A DNA stretch of 33,753 nt from Flavobacteriales bacterium (lineage in GTDB: Bacteria > Bacteroidota > Bacteroidia > Flavobacteriales_F > PHOS-HE28). Both the position numbers and the translations under genes were made by a program. Below are positions 1,378-17,356 of the stretch, piece after piece (position 1 is the stretch's first letter; every line of letters begins with the position of its first letter). The notes beneath the pieces are model-generated. The model was not told the origin of the DNA, made no database searches, and saw only the letters and a list, made by a program, of their open reading frames with translations. Location: contig JAGFIV010000079.1 in assembly GCA_024103275.1 (NCBI GenBank), forward strand, positions 1 to 33,753, in the 5' to 3' direction.

Positions 1378-2487
1378 ATGATGATGGAACGATCGGAAGC
1401 GATCTCTTGGAGGGTGGTGGCCGCCGGCCTGGCACTTTTCCTGTTCACCGGCATGCAGGCGCAGGACGCGCCGAAATACAGCAACGAGTTCCTGTCCATC
1501 GGGGTGGGGGCGCGTTCGCTGGGCATGGGCTATTCCCATGTGGCCGCCACCAACGACGTGACCGCCGGCTACTGGAACCCGGCCGGCCTGCTGGGCGTGC
1601 GCGGCGACCTGCAGGTAGGGGCCATGCACAGCGAGTATTTCGCCGGCATCGCCAAGTACGATTACCTCGCCGTGGCCAAACCCATCGATTCGGTCAGCAC
1701 CATCGGCGTGTCGTACCTCCGCTTCGGCGTGGACAACATCCCCAACACCACCGAGCTGATCGACAACAACGGCAACCTCGACTACGACCGCATCACCAGC
1801 TTTTCCGCCACGGACAATGCCTTCCTGGTGAGCTATGCGCGCAAGCTGAAGGTGCCGGGGCTCCGCTTGGGCGCCAATGCGAAGGTGGTGTACCGCAATG
1901 TGGGTCCTTTCGCCAAGGCCTGGGGCTTCGGCCTGGATGCGGGCCTGCAGTACGACCGGGGGGCGTGGCACTTGGCGGCCATGGGGCGCGACATCACCGG
2001 CACCTTCAACGCCTGGACCTACTCCCTGGATGAGCGCACCAAGGACGTGTTCGTGCGCACCGGCAACGAGCTGCCCGTGAACGGCGTGGAGGTGACCCTG
2101 CCGCGCCTGGTGCTGGGCGTGGCCAGGGGCTTCAAGCTGGGCGGCAAGGTGGACCTGCTCGCCGAACTGGACCTGGAGAACACCTTCGACGGCCAGCGGA
2201 ATACCTTGGTGGCCACCAGCGCGTGGAGCGGCGACCCGCGACTGGGCATCGAGGTGGGGTATGCCCAGGTCGTCTTCCTCCGGGCCGGGGTGAACAACAT
2301 GCAGTACATCACCGACATCAACGACAAGCGGACGTTGAACGTGCAGCCCAACATCGGGCTGGGCCTGAAGATCAAGAGCGTGGCCCTGGATTACGCGCTT
2401 ACCAATATCGGCGAGGGCAACGGTGCGCTGATCTCCAATGTCTTCTCCCTGCGCTTCGACCTGTTCAAGCATAGTTCCGATTCATGA
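1378..2487 (+). CDS. PorV/PorQ-family outer-membrane protein (T9SS-associated)
   Basis: A 369-residue outer-membrane beta-barrel protein of the PorV/PorQ family. In the type IX secretion system, PorV-type barrels shuttle cargo to the cell-surface sortase PorU. The mature start carries the family's N-terminal pattern: YSNEFLSIGVGARSLGMG, then the segment ATNDVTAGYWNPAGL, followed by many alternating barrel strands. A signal peptide is visible (hydrophobic GLALFLFTGMQAQ). Three ATG codons follow one another at 1378, 1381 and 1384; an upstream TTG at 1354 is possible but unnecessary. The gene overlaps the PorU-like gene by ATGA, which supports a matched PorV/PorU pair. It may be a paralogue rather than the main PorV. 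Confidence 0.82.
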   Translation: MMMERSEAISWRVVAAGLALFLFTGMQAQDAPKYSNEFLSIGVGARSLGMGYSHVAATNDVTAGYWNPAGLLGVRGDLQVGAMHSEYFAGIAKYDYLAVAKPIDSVSTIGVSYLRFGVDNIPNTTELIDNNGNLDYDRITSFSATDNAFLVSYARKLKVPGLRLGANAKVVYRNVGPFAKAWGFGLDAGLQYDRGAWHLAAMGRDITGTFNAWTYSLDERTKDVFVRTGNELPVNGVEVTLPRLVLGVARGFKLGGKVDLLAELDLENTFDGQRNTLVATSAWSGDPRLGIEVGYAQVVFLRAGVNNMQYITDINDKRTLNVQPNIGLGLKIKSVALDYALTNIGEGNGALISNVFSLRFDLFKHSSDS

Positions 2488-5400
2488 AACGCCTGCTGCC
2501 CGTTGCCTTTATCGCCGGCCTATGCCTTCAACTGGCGGCCCAGCCATTCGGCAACGAGTGGATCCGTTACGACCAGCAGTATTGGGCCTTCAAGGTTTGG
2601 GCGGAAGGGGCGCGGCGCATCGATTCCACCGCCTTGGCGGATGCCGGCCTCCCCTTGGCCTCCATCGATCCGCGCGGGTTCCAGCTGTATGCCCGCGGCC
2701 GGCAGGTGCCCATTTATGTGAAGGGGGAACAGGACGGCCAGTTCAACAGCGGTGACTTCATCGAGTTCTACGCCTTCAAGAATGATGGTTGGCTCGACAG
2801 CACCTTGTGGGATGACCCCGCCCACATCAACAACCCGTATTATTCCCTCTACAACGACACCATCCGTTATTACCTCACGTGGGGCTCCTCGTCCGGTGCC
2901 TTGCGCATGGACACGATCTCCAGTTCCAATTGGGCCGCCAGGCAGCCCTTGCCTTGGTGCTGGGGCACTACCCTGGTCCAGGATGCGAACATCTACCAGG
3001 GCGGGATCTCGTCCTACAACGGTGCCATGTTGTGTACCATCAATGAGGGGGAAGGCTATTTCAGCGGCCAGCCCTTGTCCACCACGGGGGGCGATGCGGT
3101 GAAGACCTATACATTGAACCTGCCCGGATTGAACACCACTGCCGGACTGCCGCCGCTGACCTACAGGTCCGTGTGGGCCGGCCTGCTCAATCCGGGGTTC
3201 GCCACCTGCCCGGACCATCACTTGGTGCTCTCCCATGCGGGCACCACGTATATGGACACCATCTTCCAGGGGCGGCGGTTGTTGAAGCTGGAATTTGAGT
3301 TCCCTCTTTCCAGCGTGGGCGGGGCCAGCACCGTGGTGAACTACACCGCCGTGCATGACCTGGTGTGCAATGGCCTCCCGCCGGACTATCACGATGCCAC
3401 GGCCCTGGCCTGGCACAGCATCCGGTATCCCAGGGATTTTGCCTTTGTCAATGGCACGGTGGCCGAGTTGCCCGCGCAAGCAGGCACCGACAGCCTGCGG
3501 ATGGACTTTTCGCTGGCCAATGACGCCATCATACATGCCTGGACCCCCGGAGGAAGCTTGGTGCGGTGCAAGCCCGTACTGGAACTCGGGGGCCTCCATG
3601 CCGTGCTGCCCCCCGCCGCAACGGACATGCGGATGGCGGTGACCCGGGTGCCCCTGATGGCCCCCGTGACCGCGGCCCAGCTGCTACCGGTAACGCCCAC
3701 GGGGTACTTCACCGACCCTGCCGGGAACCTGCCCGATTCCGCCTTGGTCATCGTCACCCATACCACGCTGATGGATGCCGCGCAGCAGTATGCGCTTTAC
3801 CGGCAGACCAATCCGAACAACCGCTACAACACCATCGTGGCGGACGTAGAGGATTTGTACCACCAGTTCGGGGGCGGGGTGCGGCTGCACCCGATGGCCA
3901 TCCGCAACTTCATCCGGTATGTATACAGCCAGGCTCCCTCCAGGCCCCAGGGCCTGTTCCTGGTGGGCAAGAGCGTGAAGGCACCGGCCACGGGAGGATT
4001 GAGCTATCAGCGCGGCTACCGTAGGGATGCGCTTGCCGCGGCGGCCTGCCTCGTTCCCACCATGGGGTGGCCCAATTCCGACATGAGCTTCGGGCTCAAC
4101 CTCACCGGCACCCAGCCTGCCTACCTCTCGGTACCCGTGGGCCGCCTGGCGGCGCGCACCCCCGATGATGTGTTGCACTACCTGGCCAAGGTGGATTCCG
4201 TGGAAAGCCAGCCGCCCGCCGCATGGATGAAGAACATCCTGCACTTCCGAGGCGGATTCACGGACCTGGAGCGGACCATGTTCGACAATGCCTTGCACAG
4301 CTTCCAGGTCGTGGCCGAGGACACCTCCTTCTTCGGCCATGTGACCCGCTTCGTCAAGAACGGTCCCGACATCATTGAGCAGGCCGCCTTGGACAGCGTG
4401 ACCGACATGGTGGCGAACGGGGTGACCCTGATGACCTTCTTCGCCCATGCCTATGGCGGCGGGTTCGACATCACCATCGACTCGCCCAGCAACTACAACT
4501 GGCACGGCAAGTTCCCCACCATTTTCGGCAACTCGTGCTACACCGGCAACCTGCACCTGTACGATGCCGCCAGCACCAGTGAACAGTTCGTGCTCCATGA
4601 GAACGCCGGGGCCGTGGCCTTCATCTCCTCCAGCGATATCGGGCTTTCCACGCTGCTCGCCCAGTATTGCCGCGATTTCTACAAGAGCTTCAGCCAGGTG
4701 AATTACGGGAAGAGCATCGGGCAGCACATGCGCTTTGCAAGCTTCAACCAGTTGGGCACCGGCACCATCGATGCGGTGAACAGCGCGGAGACCATCCACC
4801 TGCACGGCGACCCCACCCTGGTCATGAACTCGCCCAAGCTGCCCGACCTGGAGGTGACCCAGGCCGACGTGCTGACCATCCCCCAGCAGGTCACGGCCGA
4901 CCTGGATTCCTTCCGCCTGCAAGTGATCTTCCGCAACATCGGAAGGGGTACCCACCAATCCTTCAGCGTGGCCGTGGACCGGCGGCTGGTGGACTTGGGC
5001 GTGGACCTGCCCACCGTGACCCGGCAGGTGCAAATGGGGTCATTCCAGGATACCGTGGTCTTCACGCTTCCGACCCAGGTGGCCGCGGGCGGAGTGGGCA
5101 TCAATGACTTGCAGGTGAGGCTGGACTTGGACCCCGACTTGATCCAGGAGCTGGACGAAACGGGCAACAACCAGGTGACCATGCGGATCAATATCAGGCC
5201 CGGGGACCTGCTGCCGGTGCATCCCTACAATTTCGCCATCACACCGGACCATGCACCCATCCTGAAGGCCAGCACCGGCGACCCCTTTGCGCCGCCCCGC
5301 CGGTACATCTTCCAGATCGATACCACGGACCTGTACAACAGCCCGATCATGGAGCAACACGTGGTGGAAGCGCCGGGCGGGGTGGTGGAGTGGGCTCCTT

Positions 5401-7577
5401 CGTCCATCTATGCGATCAACTTCAACCGGGACAGCGTGGTCTTCTTTTGGCGCTGCTCCCTGGACAGCGCAGGGCAGGGTGATTACAACTGGCATGAGTT
5501 CTCCTTCCAGCACATCACCGGCAAGACCGGATGGGGGCAATCGCATTTCTTCCAGTTCAAGGACAATGCGTTCAATTTGTTGAACTATGATCGCCCGGGC
5601 CGCCGCATTGATTATTTCGGCGGCAACCACCAGATCGCCTGCGTGGTACGGGGCGGTTCATACAACCAAGTGTATTGGACCAAAGACCTTGAGATGCAGG
5701 AAGGCAACGGATGCGGTGCAACACCGTACATGAACGTGGCCGTGGTGGACCCCTTCGACTTCTCAACCTGGGAAACGGGTTATGGGGGCTCGGGCCATTA
5801 CTACGGCGAGTTCAACGCGGGGTCGGCATGCGTGGACAGGCCGAAAAAGAACTTCGCCTTCCGTTTCGTGTATGCCAACCAGCCGGACGTGGCCCAGATG
5901 GATACGATGGCCTATATGTTGAGCAACGTCATTCCCAACGGCCATTATGTGCTGGTGTACTCCTATGTGCGCCTGTTGCGCAACTCCCTGCTGGCCTCCA
6001 ATGCCATGAATGCGATGGCCGCCTTGGGCGCGGTGAACTTGGCCAACGGCACGGTGCCGGATAGTGTGCCGTACATATTCTTCTGCAAGAAAGGCGACCC
6101 CTCCTCGGTACAAGAGGTATGGGGCGACACGCCGGAGGCATTGATCGAGATGAATGCCTCCATGACGCTTAGCAGCCGGAGCGGTTCATTGCAGGCCCCG
6201 CGCAGCAATCCGGCATTGGGCTGGCAGGGGCTTAGCTGGCAGATATCACCGAGGCAGGCCAACGACAGCACCCGGATACAACTGGCGGGCGTGTCCCAGG
6301 GATTCGAGACCGCGCTGCTGGACCTGGAGGGGCTGACGGGGGACGTGGACCTGCTTCCCATCGTGGATCCCGACCAATTCAGCCAGCTCAGGCTGAAGGG
6401 GTCCTTCTGGAACGACACCGTGGAAACCCCGTTGCCTGCCCAGTTGAAGCGGTGGCAGCTGTTGGGCGTTCCCGCGCCCGAGTGCGCGATCGACCCACCG
6501 TCCGGGTTCCTGTTCCACATGGACAGCCTGTTCCAGGGGCAGGATGGCCAGGTGATGGTGGCCGTGCGGAACATCGGCCAGGTACACATGGACAGCCTGC
6601 TGATGACCGCGTGGGTCACCGACCGGAACAACCAGGTACACCGTGTGCATTACAAGTACAACCCGCCCCTGCCCGAAGGGGCCGTCCTGAGGGATACCAT
6701 CACCATCAACACGCAGCAGTATCCCGGCCCCAATTCCATCCTCATCGAGGCCAATCCCATCGATACCCTCACCGGTGAATACGACCAGCGCGAACAATAC
6801 CATTTCAACAACATCGCCGAACTGCGCTTCCTCACCCTGCAGGACCTGGAAAACCCCATGCTGGACATCACCTTCGACGGCATCCACATCCTGGACGGGG
6901 ATATCGTAAGCGCCGAGCCGGAGATCCTGATCCGACTGGAAGACGAAAACCAGACCCTGCTGCTGGACCAGCCCGGCGACACGGCCTACTTCAAGGTCTT
7001 CCTGACGGACCCTTCCGGTGCAAACAGGCGCATCTACTTCCGGGAAGGGACGCGGGAAGTGCTGCAGTTCATCCCCGCCAGCGGGCCGGAAAACGTCAGC
7101 CAGGTGATCTACAGGCCCAAGTTCACCGTGGACGGCAAGTACCGCATCAGCGTGCGGGCCACGGACAAGAGCCGCAACAACAGCGGGGACCGCGACAACA
7201 GCGCGAATTTCGAGGTGATCACACGCCCCACCATCACCGAGGTGCTCAACTACCCCAACCCCTTTACCACCAGCACCCGCTTCGTATTCACCGTCACCGG
7301 GCGTGAACCCCCGACGGCCATGCGCATCCAGGTGATGACCATCACCGGAAGGGTGGTGCGCGAGATCTCCGCCGCCGAACTGGGGCCCTTGCACGTGGGC
7401 CGCAACATCACCCAATTTGCCTGGGACGGCACCGACCAGTTCGGCGACCGCCTGGCACGCGGGGTATACCTGTACCGGGTGACCGCCCAGCTGCACGGCC
7501 AGGACATCGAATACCGGGACGGCGGCGCCGGCGCCTACTTCACCAAGGGAGTGGGCAAGATGTTCCTGCTACATTGA
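2484..7577 (+). CDS. PorU2-like C25-family sortase/peptidase with FlgD-like C-terminal domain
   Basis: A 1697-residue secreted protein resembling the putative type IX sortase PorU2. The N-terminal signal peptide is followed by a PorU-like region, with YARGRQVPIYVKGEQDGQF and the GDFIEFYAF stretch. A gingipain-type C25 peptidase domain covers roughly residues 400-780. The likely catalytic pair is His655 (FFAHAYGGG) and Cys685 (FGNSCYTGN), and HLHGDPTLVM closes the domain. A CARDB-like domain (around residues 790-900) and other beta-rich domains follow. The last 100 residues hold NYPNPF and WDGTDQFGDRLARGVYLYR, a FlgD-like/T9SS C-terminal fold. By analogy with PorU it would cleave the sorting domain of secreted proteins and attach them to the surface. 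The protein is larger than PorU itself. It starts in an ATGA overlap with the PorV-like gene. Confidence 0.85.
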   Translation: MKRLLPVAFIAGLCLQLAAQPFGNEWIRYDQQYWAFKVWAEGARRIDSTALADAGLPLASIDPRGFQLYARGRQVPIYVKGEQDGQFNSGDFIEFYAFKNDGWLDSTLWDDPAHINNPYYSLYNDTIRYYLTWGSSSGALRMDTISSSNWAARQPLPWCWGTTLVQDANIYQGGISSYNGAMLCTINEGEGYFSGQPLSTTGGDAVKTYTLNLPGLNTTAGLPPLTYRSVWAGLLNPGFATCPDHHLVLSHAGTTYMDTIFQGRRLLKLEFEFPLSSVGGASTVVNYTAVHDLVCNGLPPDYHDATALAWHSIRYPRDFAFVNGTVAELPAQAGTDSLRMDFSLANDAIIHAWTPGGSLVRCKPVLELGGLHAVLPPAATDMRMAVTRVPLMAPVTAAQLLPVTPTGYFTDPAGNLPDSALVIVTHTTLMDAAQQYALYRQTNPNNRYNTIVADVEDLYHQFGGGVRLHPMAIRNFIRYVYSQAPSRPQGLFLVGKSVKAPATGGLSYQRGYRRDALAAAACLVPTMGWPNSDMSFGLNLTGTQPAYLSVPVGRLAARTPDDVLHYLAKVDSVESQPPAAWMKNILHFRGGFTDLERTMFDNALHSFQVVAEDTSFFGHVTRFVKNGPDIIEQAALDSVTDMVANGVTLMTFFAHAYGGGFDITIDSPSNYNWHGKFPTIFGNSCYTGNLHLYDAASTSEQFVLHENAGAVAFISSSDIGLSTLLAQYCRDFYKSFSQVNYGKSIGQHMRFASFNQLGTGTIDAVNSAETIHLHGDPTLVMNSPKLPDLEVTQADVLTIPQQVTADLDSFRLQVIFRNIGRGTHQSFSVAVDRRLVDLGVDLPTVTRQVQMGSFQDTVVFTLPTQVAAGGVGINDLQVRLDLDPDLIQELDETGNNQVTMRINIRPGDLLPVHPYNFAITPDHAPILKASTGDPFAPPRRYIFQIDTTDLYNSPIMEQHVVEAPGGVVEWAPSSIYAINFNRDSVVFFWRCSLDSAGQGDYNWHEFSFQHITGKTGWGQSHFFQFKDNAFNLLNYDRPGRRIDYFGGNHQIACVVRGGSYNQVYWTKDLEMQEGNGCGATPYMNVAVVDPFDFSTWETGYGGSGHYYGEFNAGSACVDRPKKNFAFRFVYANQPDVAQMDTMAYMLSNVIPNGHYVLVYSYVRLLRNSLLASNAMNAMAALGAVNLANGTVPDSVPYIFFCKKGDPSSVQEVWGDTPEALIEMNASMTLSSRSGSLQAPRSNPALGWQGLSWQISPRQANDSTRIQLAGVSQGFETALLDLEGLTGDVDLLPIVDPDQFSQLRLKGSFWNDTVETPLPAQLKRWQLLGVPAPECAIDPPSGFLFHMDSLFQGQDGQVMVAVRNIGQVHMDSLLMTAWVTDRNNQVHRVHYKYNPPLPEGAVLRDTITINTQQYPGPNSILIEANPIDTLTGEYDQREQYHFNNIAELRFLTLQDLENPMLDITFDGIHILDGDIVSAEPEILIRLEDENQTLLLDQPGDTAYFKVFLTDPSGANRRIYFREGTREVLQFIPASGPENVSQVIYRPKFTVDGKYRISVRATDKSRNNSGDRDNSANFEVITRPTITEVLNYPNPFTTSTRFVFTVTGREPPTAMRIQVMTITGRVVREISAAELGPLHVGRNITQFAWDGTDQFGDRLARGVYLYRVTAQLHGQDIEYRDGGAGAYFTKGVGKMFLLH

Positions 7578-11786: not shown

Positions 11787-12212
11787 GGGTTTGGGCTGGG
11801 TAAGTCAAATATAGCCCAATTTCATCGATCCGTTGACGGGCTCTACGCCTTTTTTCCCCATGGCCCGGGAAGGGTCCGATGGAAAATCAGGCGGATACCG
11901 AAGCGTACTGGTTGTACAGGTTCTGGGGGGCAGGGCCAAATGGAAGCAGGGGTCTTTGGTTGAGATAGACGTGCGTGATCGGACCGGGTTGCCTTCTGGG
12001 GAAAACTTCCTCCCAAGGCACAGTTTCCGGTCTGCCCGATCCCAAGAGCGTCCCTGTATGGCTAACCTTGCAGGCAATGAAAGGAAATGGTGCTGCCCGG
12101 CGAAAGTGGCCTGGACCTGAATGCCCGGTGCACCTTGGCTTTGGGGATTGCCACACCCCCGGGATCGCACGATGGAAGGGAGTCGGCCTTCCATGCGGCT
12201 TGCCCAATACCA
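11787..12212. other. 426-bp gap between the T9SS cargo gene and tilS
   Basis: No convincing gene is visible. The open frames here are overlaps or antisense of tilS and lack family features. The left edge holds a good TAnnTTTG box for the minus-strand gene (separate entry). No tilS promoter could be recognised. Confidence 0.5.
11806..11813 (-). promoter_or_regulatory. Promoter -7 box TATATTTG for the T9SS cargo gene
   Basis: Read on the minus strand, TATATTTG matches the Bacteroidota -7 consensus TAnnTTTG exactly. It lies 19 nt before the ATG at 11786, leaving a leader of about 14 nt. No clear -33 TTTG was found at the usual distance. Confidence 0.5.
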
Positions 12213-13547
12213 ATGGCCATGCTCAGTAAGGTCAGGCGCACCCTTGCACACGGCAGGATGCTGCAGACCGGCGAGCCCGTTTGGGTGGCCGTCAGCGGGG
12301 GCGTGGACAGCATGGTGCTGCTGCATGTGCTGCTGGAGATCGGCCATCCCTGCCGAGTGGCCCATGTGGACCACGGTTTGCGCGGGGAGGCGAGCACCGC
12401 TGACCGGTACTTTGTGGAAGGAGAGGCCCGGCGTTTGGGCCTTGCATTCCGGTGGGTGAAGGTGGACGTGAAAGAGGAGGAGGGCCGGTCGGTGCAGATG
12501 GCCGCCCGGGAATTGCGCTATGGCTGGTTCCGGGAATTGCTCCGCGAAGGGCCCCGCGTCATGGCCCTCGGCCATCACCGGGATGATGCGGTGGAGACCC
12601 TCCTCCTGCACCTGATGCGGGGGATGGGCGTCCATGGCTGGGGCGGCATTCCCCCGGTGACCCGGCTGCATGAAGGACGGATCTGCAGGCCGCTGCTGGA
12701 CCTGGACAGGGCGGAGATCTTGGCGTATGCCAGCGGGAAAGGGATCCACTTCCGGGAGGATGCAAGCAATACGGACCCCAAATACCTGCGCAACCGGGTG
12801 CGTGCCGAGCTGCTGCCACGGATGGAGGAACTGCGCCCCGGGGCCCGCCGGTCCCTGGCACGCGCCAGCCGCCTGTTGCCGGAACTGGCGGCCTTGGCGG
12901 AAGAAGGGCTTCAACGATTGGCGCAGGAGTTGGTCACTGACGAAGGCGGCGGGGTGCAGCGCCTGGCTTTGGACAAGCTGATGGAAAGTCCTGCGCCGCA
13001 CCTGCTGTTGATGCACGTACTTGGCATGGACCGGCCGCACCCCGACGTGATCGGGCAGGTCCTGGAGGCGGTGGCCGCAGGTGCCGTAGGGGCCCGATTC
13101 CAGGCCGGACGCCGCAGGCTGACCGTGGAAAGCGGGAGCCTGGTGATCGACCAGGGGGCGGTTGGCTTTCCCACATTCACCATTCATGAGGCCCAGGCCG
13201 ACGGGGGAAGCCAAGGCCCGTTCACCTGGGCCGCGTGCCCTCCGGGGGAGGTGGACCTGGCGCAAGGGCCGGCCACGGTATGGCTAGATCGGTCCAAGCT
13301 GACCTTCCCCCTGGTGCTGCGGCCGTGGAAGCCCGGGGACCGCATGCGGCCCGTGGGCCTGAAGGGGTCCAAGCTGGTGAGCGACATCCTGACCGATGCG
13401 CGGGTACCCCGGACCGAAAAGGAGGCTGCCTATGTCCTGGTGAGCGGGGGCGTGTTGGCGTGGGTGGCTGGCCACCGTGTGGCACAGGGGTTCGAGGCTG
13501 CCGGCAACACCACGCAAGTGCTGCGGATCACCTGGCGCCGGCCGTGA
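12213..13547 (+). CDS. tilS: tRNA(Ile)-lysidine synthase TilS
   Basis: TilS attaches lysine to C34 of tRNA-Ile(CAU), which changes its decoding from AUG to AUA; it is essential in most bacteria. The 444-residue protein has the PP-loop ATP-binding motif SGGVDS at residues 28-33, then HVDHGLRGEAS and the segment MALGHHRDDAVETLLLHLMRG with its family-typical HxxDD. The linker region contains DASNTDPKYLRNRVR. The C-terminal domain includes WKPGDRMRPVGLKGSKLVSD. Start at 12213 (MAMLSKVRRT) was chosen because the longer frame upstream lacks family sequence and ATG 12219 is two codons further in. The last bases overlap a Crp-like palindrome. Confidence 0.93.
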   Translation: MAMLSKVRRTLAHGRMLQTGEPVWVAVSGGVDSMVLLHVLLEIGHPCRVAHVDHGLRGEASTADRYFVEGEARRLGLAFRWVKVDVKEEEGRSVQMAARELRYGWFRELLREGPRVMALGHHRDDAVETLLLHLMRGMGVHGWGGIPPVTRLHEGRICRPLLDLDRAEILAYASGKGIHFREDASNTDPKYLRNRVRAELLPRMEELRPGARRSLARASRLLPELAALAEEGLQRLAQELVTDEGGGVQRLALDKLMESPAPHLLLMHVLGMDRPHPDVIGQVLEAVAAGAVGARFQAGRRRLTVESGSLVIDQGAVGFPTFTIHEAQADGGSQGPFTWAACPPGEVDLAQGPATVWLDRSKLTFPLVLRPWKPGDRMRPVGLKGSKLVSDILTDARVPRTEKEAAYVLVSGGVLAWVAGHRVAQGFEAAGNTTQVLRITWRRP

Positions 13548-13612: not shown

Positions 13613-14083
13613 ATGACGCGAATGTGCGCCCCCATGCTGGCCGTGATGATGCTGGCGCCCATGGCCGGGATGGCATGCTACGGCGGACCGGTGACGTGGA
13701 ATTTCGCAGCCCACCCCGTGGATGCCGGCACCGTGCGGGTGGAACTGTCCGCTGTCTGCGAACCGGGGTGGCACATCTATTCGCTGGCCCAATCGGGGGA
13801 GGAAGGACCCCTGCCCACGGTGGTGACCTTGGATGAAAGCCCGGATTATCGGGTGCAGGGCACGGTGGCGGAGCCTGTCCCGGTGGAGGCCATGGATGCC
13901 GCCTTCGGCCTTGTCGTCCAATACCATGCCGGCACCACCAGCTTCACGCAGGCCGTGGAGCGCGGTTCGGCACAACCGTTCACCGTCAGCGGCCGGGTGG
14001 ATTACATGGCGTGCAACGACCGCACCTGCCTGCCACCGCATTCCGTGCGTTTTTCCGTGGACATCCCAGCTTATTCAAAGTGA
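13613..14083 (+). CDS. Stand-alone DsbD alpha-like periplasmic domain protein
   Basis: A 156-residue exported protein consisting of little more than one DsbD N-terminal (alpha) domain. After a signal peptide (MLAVMMLAPMAGMA) the fold markers match those in the next gene: VTWNF, GWHIYSLAQSGEEGPLPTVV and VDYMACNDRTCLPP. Cys134 and Cys139 form a CxxxxC pair like the redox pair of the alpha domain. It probably accepts electrons from the membrane domain of DsbD and passes them to a periplasmic partner, though this is inferred from the family. The stop TGA shares one base with the ATG of dsbD (TGATG), so translation is coupled. A Cys right after the hydrophobic stretch (MAC) leaves a lipoprotein anchor possible. 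Confidence 0.78.
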   Translation: MTRMCAPMLAVMMLAPMAGMACYGGPVTWNFAAHPVDAGTVRVELSAVCEPGWHIYSLAQSGEEGPLPTVVTLDESPDYRVQGTVAEPVPVEAMDAAFGLVVQYHAGTTSFTQAVERGSAQPFTVSGRVDYMACNDRTCLPPHSVRFSVDIPAYSK

Positions 14084-16608
14084 TGCGACCGATAGCATTT
14101 GCCTTTCTTGCCGCGATGGCCGGCCCGGCGGGCGCGCAGCAGCCCGGTGCCGCCGCTGAACCCCTGGAACCGGTGAAATGGAGCATCGCCGCCGTGGCGC
14201 AGGGACCCGGGGTGTGGGACCTGGTGTTCAACGCAAAGGCCGATCCGGGGTGGTATGTCTATTCCCAGGAGCATTTCGGCGATGCGGGCCCCATGCCCAC
14301 CACCTTCAGCTTTGACACCCTGCCCACCTTCACCTTGGAAGGCGCAACCCGGGAGAGCGGCCAGCACAAGAAGGAGGGCTTGGACCCCATTTTCGAGATG
14401 AACGTGCGGAAATACGCGGGGCTGGTCACCTTCACGCAGCGTATCCGCACCGCCTCCCCCGAAAGCCCGGTGACCGGTCACTTCGACTTCATGACCTGCG
14501 ACGACAGCCGGTGCATCTTCCCCGACCCGACCTACTTCCGCATCATCCCGGCCACGGGCCAGGCCGACATGGGGGCCATGCCCCTTGGCGCCGCCACCGG
14601 GCCCGGAGGCACCGTGGCCGATCAGTTGAATGCACCGCAGGACGGCCTTCTGGATCCGGTGAAATGGAGCGCCACGGCGACCGGTCTGGGCGGAGGCAAG
14701 TGGCGCGTGGACCTGAAGGCGACCATCGATGAGCCGTGGGGCGTGTACTCGCAGGTTTCCTTCGGCGAAGGGCCCCTGCCAACGGTGATCACCTTCGACA
14801 GCACATCGGCCGCCGTGCCCTTGGGCACCACGGTGGAGAGCGGCCCCGACATGCACGAGGGCATGGACGAATTGTTCGGCATCGTGGTGCGCAAGTTCTA
14901 CAAGGAAGTCACCTACAGCAGGGAGGTGCAAGTACTGGACCCCAACGAGCCCATCACCGGCACCATCGAGTACATGGCGTGCGACAACAGCCGCTGCGTG
15001 TTCCCCGACCCGTTGCCGTTCCGGATCATACCGGCCACCGGCGCCGGCGTGATCGGCGATCAGACGGCCTCGGTGCCCACCACCGGCGAGGGCTGCGACC
15101 TGAAGCTGGCCAAGGTGGACCTCGATGCGCCGGTGCTCAAGGCGGACAGCGAGACCATCGATGTGCAGGTGCGCAAGGGGGGCTCGCTCTGGAACATCTT
15201 CTTCCTGGGCTTCGTCGGCGGGCTGATCGCCCTGCTCACGCCATGCGTGTTCCCCATGATCCCGCTCACCGTGAGCTTCTTCACCAAGGGCAGCGAGGAC
15301 AAACGCAAGGGCATGCGCAACGCGGTCGTGTACGGGGCCTTCATCCTGCTCATATACCTGCTGTTCAGCCTGCCTTTCCACCTGTTGGGCTCGGTCAATC
15401 CGGAGATCTTCAATGAGATCAGCACCAATCCCTGGCTCAACATCTTCTTCTTCGCCATCTTCATCGTTTTCGCCATTTCGTTCTTCGGCTACTTCGAGAT
15501 CACCCTGCCCGCCAGCTGGGTGAACAAGATGGACTCCAATGCCAGCCGCTTCGGGGGTGACATCGGCATCTTCTTCATGGCGCTCACCTTGGCCCTGGTG
15601 TCCTTTTCCTGCACCGGCCCCATCCTGGGGTCCCTGTTGGCCGGTGCCCTGTCCAGCGATGGGGGGGCTTGGCAGCTCACCGTGGGCATGGGGGCATTCG
15701 GCCTGGCCCTGGCGCTGCCGTTCGCCATCTTCGCCATGTTCCCCGGATGGCTGAATTCCATGCCCAAGTCCGGAAGCTGGCTCAACAGCGTGAAGGTGGT
15801 GCTGGGCTTCGCCGAGGTGGCCTTGGCCTTCAAGTTCCTCAGCAACGCCGACCTGGTGAAGGGGTGGAAGATCGTACCGTACGAGCTGTTCATGGCCATT
15901 TGGGTGATCTGCGCGCTGGGGGCTGCCCTCTACCTGCTGGGGAAGATCCGCTTCCCGCACGACAGCCCGCTGATGAAGATCTCCCCCATTCGCGGTGGCC
16001 TGGCCTTGTTGTTCCTTGTCATGACGGGCTATCTGGCCAGTGGCTTCATGGTGGACAAGTCGCGCAACACGTTCACCACAAAGAAGTTGATGAGCGGCCT
16101 GGCGCCACCGGTGGGCTATAGCTGGCTGTTGCCGCAGGAATGCCCCAGCGGGTTCGACTGTTTCCACGACCTGGAGGCCGGCATGGCCCATGCCAAGGCC
16201 ACAGGCAAGCCCATCCTGTTGGATTTCACAGGCTATGCATGCGTGAACTGCCGCAAAATGGAGGAGCACGTTTGGCCTGTGTCCGAGATACACAAGCAGA
16301 TCGATAAGAAGTACGTGCTGATCTCCTTGTACGTGGACGACAAGACGGAGCTGCCCGCCGACGAGCAGCGGAACTACACCACCTGCCAAGGCAAGCAGAA
16401 GCGCATCGTGACCGTGGGCAACAAATGGAGCACCCTGCAGACGGAGACCTTCATCAACAACAGCCAGCCCTATTACGCACTGCTAAGCCCGGATGGCGTG
16501 TTGCTCACGGACCCGGTGGGCTATACACCGGATGCCCGGGAGTACGGCGCATTCCTGCAACGCGGGCTGCAGGCCATGCAGGAGTTGCAGTTGCGGGCGA
16601 GCAGGTAG
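14083..16608 (+). CDS. dsbD: Thiol:disulfide interchange protein DsbD with duplicated alpha domain
   Basis: An 841-residue inner-membrane protein that moves electrons from cytoplasmic thioredoxin to periplasmic thiols (disulfide isomerases, cytochrome c maturation). Order: signal peptide; first alpha domain with Cys139/Cys144 ([13 protein letters not shown]); second alpha domain with Cys300/Cys305 ([13 protein letters not shown]); eight-helix membrane domain with Cys388 ([11 protein letters not shown]) and Cys510 (FSCTGPILG); C-terminal thioredoxin-like domain with CVNC at 720-723. Both alpha copies begin with the same PVKW-S segment, so they are a clear internal duplication; E. coli DsbD has only one. 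With the gene just upstream the locus offers three alpha domains. Start at 14083 gives a proper signal peptide ([18 protein letters not shown]). Confidence 0.93.
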
Positions 16609-16723
16609 GGAAAGCGCCTTACCTGTGGCGCTGTCCGGCGGCAGGTGTTCCGTTCCCTCTTCCCGGGGATCCCGATGCGGTCACGACGCGTGGGCTAGAT
16701 GGCAGGACACCTCCATCCTGACA

Positions 16724-16746
16724 TCGCAAACTGCGACTTCAAGTCC
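16724..16746. promoter_or_regulatory. Degenerate copy of the ORF6N-gene palindrome, upstream of that gene
   Basis: TCGCA-AAC-TGCGA is followed by CTTCAAGTC. The right half matches the perfect inverted repeat at 17024-17054 in 16 of 21 positions and keeps the same 3-nt centre between CA and TG. It lies about 80 bp before the ORF6N start. It may be an operator for that gene. The rest of the 217-bp gap (16609-16825) shows nothing clear. Confidence 0.4.
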
Positions 16747-16825
16747 CAACACTTGCACGATCGGATCGGACCCTCCATCTTGTCCGTCCGCAGCGCGACG
16801 AATAATCCGTCAATGTGACTGGGCC

Positions 16826-17356
16826 ATGGAAGAGACATTGGTCGTTCCCGATGAGGCCATCGCCTCCCGGATATACTGGATACGTGGCATGAAGGTGATG
16901 CTGGACGAGGATTTGGCGGAACTCTATCAGGTGGCGACCAAGGTCTTGAACCAGCAGGTGAGGCGCAACATCGACCGGTTTCCGGAAGACTTTGCGTTCC
17001 AGCTTACGCGGGATGAGTGGGCCAACTTGAAGTCACAATTTGTGACTTCAAGTTCGTGGGGTGGTCGGCGGAAGCTCCCGATGGCCTTTTCCGAGCACGG
17101 TGTCCTGATGCTCTCCAGCGTCCTCTAGAGCGAGCGGGCTATTGCCGTGAACATCCGGATCATGCGGGTGTTCGTGCGCATGAACCGCATCCTGATGAAC
17201 GACCGTGAACTGCTGCTGCGCTTGGAGCGTATGGAGGACCGGCAGGATGCGGGCGAAGAGGCGCTGGCGGGCCTGTTCGAGGCGGTGAAGCAGCTCATGG
17301 AAAAGCCTGCTGGCGACCGGAAGCGCATGGGATACAGGGGCGGCGACGCACTTTGA
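16826..17356 (+). pseudogene. ORF6N-domain DNA-binding protein, interrupted by an in-frame TAG
   Basis: The ORF6N domain (residues 1-100) is recognisable: [21 protein letters not shown], then [17 protein letters not shown] and [17 protein letters not shown]. These proteins bind DNA and are common in Bacteroidota genomes and phages. A TAG at 17126-17128 (codon 101) stops the frame where relatives continue straight into SERAIAVNIRIMRVFVR. That sequence follows directly in the same frame, with a coiled-coil tail to TGA 17354-17356 (176 residues in all, counting the stop position). One base change explains the break, so the decay is recent, or it is a sequencing error, or there is read-through. 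The N-terminal 100 residues may still be made. The gene contains a perfect 31-bp palindrome. Confidence 0.85.
17024..17054. repeat. Perfect 14-bp inverted repeat inside the ORF6N gene
   Basis: AACTTGAAGTCACA (17024-17037), centre ATT, then TGTGACTTCAAGTT (17041-17054). The arms are exact reverse complements although the sequence also encodes a conserved stretch of the ORF6N domain ([10 protein letters not shown]). A degenerate relative lies upstream at 16724-16746. Confidence 0.9.

Follow-up and report, generated by a model that had tools for sequence, protein, structure and literature searches.

Why should one DsbD be accompanied by three alpha domains, one of them encoded by a gene of its own? 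DsbD is the textbook example of how a single membrane protein, by way of one alpha domain, can supply many clients in the periplasm with electrons. In the window, by which we mean the whole stretch of 33,753 nucleotides that was analysed, the gene of a stand-alone alpha domain (S) overlaps a dsbD with two alpha domains in tandem (T1 and T2). This arrangement, given in a preliminary description, is borne out, with an overlap of a single base. On balance, we favour the reading that the two genes specify a single trans-membrane thiol reductase whose three output domains work in parallel. The features concerned are, in window coordinates:

12087..13547, forward strand: tilS, the conserved upstream neighbour, outside the system
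13613..14083, forward strand: S, stand-alone DsbD-alpha gene (open reading frame of 156 aa, ATG at 13613, TGA at 14081-14083; PF11412)
N-terminus of S: signal-peptide-like stretch, judged by eye
13679..14080, forward strand: alpha (Ig-fold) domain of S, CNDRTC-LPP, Cys codons 14012-14014 and 14027-14029
14081..14085, forward strand: TGATG junction, in which the stop codon of S shares one base with the start codon of dsbD
14083..16608, forward strand: dsbD, 841 aa, alpha-alpha-beta-gamma, ATG at 14083
14161..14559, forward strand: T1, first fused alpha of DsbD, CDDSRC-IFP, Cys codons 14497-14499 and 14512-14514
14560..14649, forward strand: T1-T2 linker of 30 residues, with low pLDDT in the DsbD model
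14650..15042, forward strand: T2, second fused alpha of DsbD, CDNSRC-VFP, Cys codons 14980-14982 and 14995-14997
15193..15843, forward strand: beta transmembrane domain (DsbD_TM) with Cys 388 and Cys 510 of DsbD
16084..16575, forward strand: gamma thioredoxin-fold domain, CVNC, Cys 720/723 of DsbD

The domain assignments agree between profiles, alignments and models. PF11412 (DsbD_N) matched S with 36.4 bits and the window DsbD with 37.4 bits in two stretches (cut-off 25), and the latter protein was also matched by PF02683 (DsbD_TM; 86.4 bits, cut-off 27.1), with both cysteines of the beta domain present, and by PF13899 (Thioredoxin_7; 37.8 bits, cut-off 27), with CVNC as the CxxC of gamma. 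It scored 129.5 bits against NCBIfam NF001419 (PRK00293), below the curated cut-off of 330, and is thus a DsbD-type protein by architecture that lies outside that curated subfamily. The three alphas share pairwise identities of 33, 36 and 45% (E-values 2e-24, 6e-21 and 4e-43), a likeness that is not due to chance, and all keep the CX4C pair as had been described. The cap-loop Phe70, both cysteines and Pro112 were invariant in a 12-row alignment including E. coli DsbD; F70 is the cap-loop Phe of E. coli DsbD alpha according to excerpts of PMC7347389. Because searches of PDB sequences gave no relevant match for S with phmmer and no match at E up to 1 for the A2 profile, the alphas were compared by fold. 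The AlphaFold model of S (pLDDT 93.5) matched the DsbD alphas 1jzd, 1jpe and 1l6p at Z 11.8-12.1, and in the model of whole DsbD (pLDDT 73.0 on average and mostly 80-93 in the alpha regions) T1 matched 6dps_A at Z 12.5 and T2 matched 6dnv_A at Z 12.0. All three are hence predicted to have the DsbD-alpha fold; their presumed similarity is upheld by Z-scores of about 12 to solved DsbD alphas, and no copy turned out to lack the fold, which had been named as the outcome that would speak against three alphas. The gamma domain matched 3f9u with E 5e-30, 41% identity and Z 19.0.

The coupled S-dsbD pair is the norm in the lineage of the window genome, whose family and order contain only its genus in our genome collection (n=45). 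S stood beside DsbD in 43 of the 45 genomes, the two misses being 73% and 72% complete; 25 of the 43 had S with two fused alphas and 18 had S with one. The survey of domain counts proposed earlier therefore found three alphas to be usual in the genus and not peculiar to the window genome. CX4C was present in 111/111 alphas examined, the T1-T2 linker measured 17-30 residues in the 25 genomes with tandem copies, and tilS adjoined the pair in 40/42 other loci of the genus. The distance between the end of S and the start of dsbD was -4 to +9 bp in all 43 loci, and this points to translational coupling. Weak alpha-like matches without the Cys region were also seen in two large frames of 884 and 852 aa (G010:C5:156584-156814 and G024:C6:27584-27811).

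In E. coli DsbD, cytoplasmic thioredoxin passes electrons to beta, and beta passes them on to gamma. The window protein would follow the same route, and its gamma domain would then reduce any one of S, T1 and T2. T1 and T2 would be fused outlets held at the membrane, while S, separate, predicted to be secreted and made from a translationally coupled gene, would carry electrons to clients away from the membrane. We infer reduction of S in trans by gamma, parallel outlets and different clients. The genome search found one DsbD_TM protein in the window genome, all three window alphas lie beside it, and neither VKOR nor DsbB had a match there, so all extracytoplasmic thiol reduction would pass via the three alphas, barring an undetected thiol gate. 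Some of the 13 AhpC-TSA family proteins above the cut-off in this genome may be clients of the system.

Whether a free alpha can act in trans was approached through the wider phylum. PF11412 recovered only two of the three window alphas in the genome search, and none of six cysteine-less fused alphas tested reached its cut-off; as it was too insensitive, alpha profiles were built from the window and its relatives, and these are biased toward the window family. An alpha match was present in 106 of 158 Bacteroidota genomes drawn evenly from the phylum. Such a match lay in a frame of at most 250 aa in 16/39 other genomes of the class, and two matches shared one frame in 6/157 other genomes, weaker matches being missed in both counts. 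Loci were then classified by script in two non-random sets: 36 picked by hand from this survey (short frames, tandem matches and some ordinary ones) and 80 named loci, the best 80 of 590 found via one motif, together 116 wide loci. Among the best 80 of 590, S accompanied an alpha-less DsbD in 31 (two copies of S in one of them, a single copy in the other 30), a DsbD whose alpha is without CX4C in five, two fused alphas in four and one fused alpha in one; S was absent beside one fused alpha in 29 and beside two in two, stood without DsbD in the fetched stretch in seven, and one locus was of another kind. Over the 116 wide loci, which include these best 80 of 590, a free alpha lay beside an alpha-less DsbD in 35 and beside a cysteine-less fused alpha in ten.

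The alpha-less DsbD with S occurs in Mucilaginibacter, Pedobacter, Hymenobacter, Spirosoma and Siphonobacter. In 34 of these 35 proteins, 62-141 residues precede the first transmembrane Cys motif; L143 has 226, and an unrecognised domain may remain there. The cysteine-less fused alphas belong to Chitinophagaceae, including Chitinophaga and Sediminibacterium (L085-L089, L155, L162, L170, L180 and L192), and each stands beside an intact stand-alone alpha. The alpha profile recognises all ten (E 2e-4 to 4e-16), yet none has an active-site Cys; the single Cys counted in L089 sits at the end of the stretch. Two Mucilaginibacter loci (L169 and L178) carry two adjacent stand-alone alpha-like frames followed by an alpha-less DsbD, and CX4C is absent from one of the two frames in L178. 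In L099 (G177) the frame of an alpha-less DsbD overlaps with an alpha-like one that has no CX4C, possibly through a frameshift, and that was not counted as S.

Nine genomes, all listed as 100% complete, were examined whole, four with an alpha-less DsbD and five with a cysteine-less fused alpha. Each had one DsbD_TM protein, all Cys-bearing alphas were stand-alone, and the adjacent S kept CX4C; G181 had a second stand-alone alpha elsewhere in the genome. The alpha used by those DsbDs, if any, must therefore be the free one. Elsewhere in Bacteroidota the stand-alone alpha thus appears to replace the fused one, which suggests that a free alpha can do the job alone and that gamma probably reduces it in trans. 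Katzen and Beckwith reportedly found in 2000 that E. coli DsbD domains complement when expressed separately. The earlier idea that the separate domain reaches targets beyond the fused ones gains indirect support here, the free alpha being the sole Cys-bearing one in nine genomes. Legionella DsbD2 is reported to be without alpha (in the part of PMC4491210 consulted), so gamma might serve clients alpha-free, and the split genomes need not depend on S.

We tentatively extend this to the phylum, with less confidence than we place in the reading of the window itself: Bacteroidota may repeatedly have made DsbD modular by outsourcing alpha. The free domain would be the diffusible sole outlet of an alpha-less DsbD; or it would be active alongside a cysteine-less fused alpha whose role is confined to docking or spacing; or, in the case of the window, it would be one of three outlets beside a membrane-held pair whose new CxFP flank serves different clients.

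The trees indicate how the three copies arose in the genus. In a tree of 111 alphas, S formed one clade (100) and T2 another (99), with T1 intermixed with the single fused alphas; in a beta-gamma tree of 41 rows, from which G011 and G030 were left out as truncated, the tandem state requires two changes. Taken together, they indicate that S is an old separate branch and that T2 was gained once within the genus and lost once later. In 13 pairs, dN/dS was at most 0.38 for every computable alpha comparison (S was saturated in one of them); S, T1 and T2 are all intact alphas under purifying selection. dN was highest in S in 11/13 pairs, and this fastest evolution of S could alternatively mean weaker constraint. 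A wider alpha tree (131 columns) included 19/43 genomes of the genus; L113-L116 and L120 were left out as window-genus contigs, as were stand-alone frames below 100 aa or without the Cys pair. The S copies of different families did not form one clade, deep forks were weak with long branches, and only L080 and one L077 copy showed a clear local origin of S, so we treat the S proteins found in split families as analogues of the window S, not as proven orthologues.

The residues after the second active-site Cys differ between the copies. Within the genus, LPP follows it in 43/43 S and 16/18 single fused alphas, [IV]FP in 19/25 T1 (LPP in 5/25) and xFP in 24/25 T2; YA occurs in 98% of S vs YS in all fused alphas. 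E. coli DsbD alpha has YPP. Across the 116 wide loci, including the best 80 of 590, xPP was found in 66/69 S and in 38/40 single fused alphas without S, and xFP among fused alphas was confined to the window-genus loci; one stand-alone copy outside the genus has FFP. S thus retains the usual CxPP and the tandem copies mostly have CxFP, which suggests partner specialisation of the tandem copies versus S and fits the different thiol partners proposed in the preliminary description. Among the wide loci, one genome outside the genus (L078) has the state of the window, and L077 (G201; 1967-5469, forward strand) has four alphas in three adjacent genes, two stand-alone followed by a DsbD with two fused. 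The tandem copies of both, from another family, keep CxPP, so the presence of S does not in general entail divergence of the flank.

Three other explanations were weighed against parallel outlets. The preliminary description had offered a serial relay, in which electrons pass from gamma to a fused alpha, to the next fused alpha and then to the free one. Three CX4C pairs beside one DsbD and the short T1-T2 linker would suit it; however, the loci in which the free alpha accompanies an alpha-less DsbD or a cysteine-less fused alpha (35 and 10 of the 116 wide loci, with the best 80 of 590 among them) argue against it, and one fused alpha is enough in 18/43 genomes of the genus. We consider the relay quite unlikely; in its obligatory form it finds no support, since the free alpha occurs without any Cys-bearing fused alpha, and a compulsory passage of that kind is improbable. 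A relay special to the window genus is possible.

Somewhat easier to entertain, although still unlikely in our view, is that the three alphas are interchangeable, have no separate clients and persist through drift or for the sake of capacity. The copy number is labile: the trees fit a single gain and a single loss of T2, L077 has four alphas, and independent tandems occur in L079, L094-L096, L107, L121 and L177. Mere dosage is argued against by the fully supported branch between S and the fused alphas and by fixed differences such as YA vs YS and CxPP in all S vs CxFP in nearly all T2. That S is an independent secreted thiol protein (e.g., for metal binding or peroxide defence) which is merely co-transcribed with dsbD seems very unlikely to us. 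The window S does have two extra cysteines, C24 and C51, and S was found away from any DsbD in 6/36 hand-picked loci and in seven of the named loci (best 80 of 590); yet the junction with dsbD is tight in every pair of the genus, and the domain missing from DsbD in the split families is precisely the one that S provides.

Among known systems, E. coli DsbD shares with the window the domain order, the alpha fold, the cap-loop Phe, the two beta cysteines and the gamma CxxC. It has one alpha, as had been stated and is confirmed for K-12, with a CX5C pair, in contrast to three alphas with CX4C, one of them on a separate protein. ScsB (Proteus mirabilis 6c29; Caulobacter) resembles the window DsbD in two Ig-like domains N-terminal to the transmembrane part, and 6c29 was the top VIA match for S and the third Foldseek match for the DsbD model. 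Furlong et al. reportedly found in 2018 that only one of the two Ig domains of ScsB is catalytic, whereas both carry CX4C in the window DsbD; a ScsC partner of the ScsB type was absent among the locus neighbours, which are tilS upstream and the ORF6N, SIS and ComM-like genes downstream of dsbD. The DsbD-like protein of Bacteroides fragilis (3f9u) is alike in gamma, the comparison covering the gamma structure alone. Legionella DsbD2 and CcdA are reduced forms of DsbD that have no fused alpha, and the parts of PMC4491210 and PMC4460558 consulted describe no partner stand-alone alpha gene, unlike the window with its S. Searches of a library of openly licensed papers yielded none on duplication of DsbD alpha or on a stand-alone alpha. 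We would read the window system as a DsbD variant with parallel outlets. A lineage that has duplicated alpha, set it free and here and there made it redundant offers natural experiments on the choice of alpha by gamma and of clients by alpha.

Some further observations concern the locus and its surroundings. In P0001 numbering, C24 of the window S closes the signal-like stretch and C51 immediately precedes GWHIY, and a C51-type Cys is also present in the related S copies of L067 and L045. A promoter scan of the window found none, and three terminator-like sites were seen vs 2.2 expected. The ORF6N-domain protein directly downstream of dsbD lies at 16493-17128 (122.7 bits). At 2484-7577 the window encodes a 1697-aa Peptidase C25 protein that contains a FlgD-like Ig domain and resembles PorU of type IX secretion.
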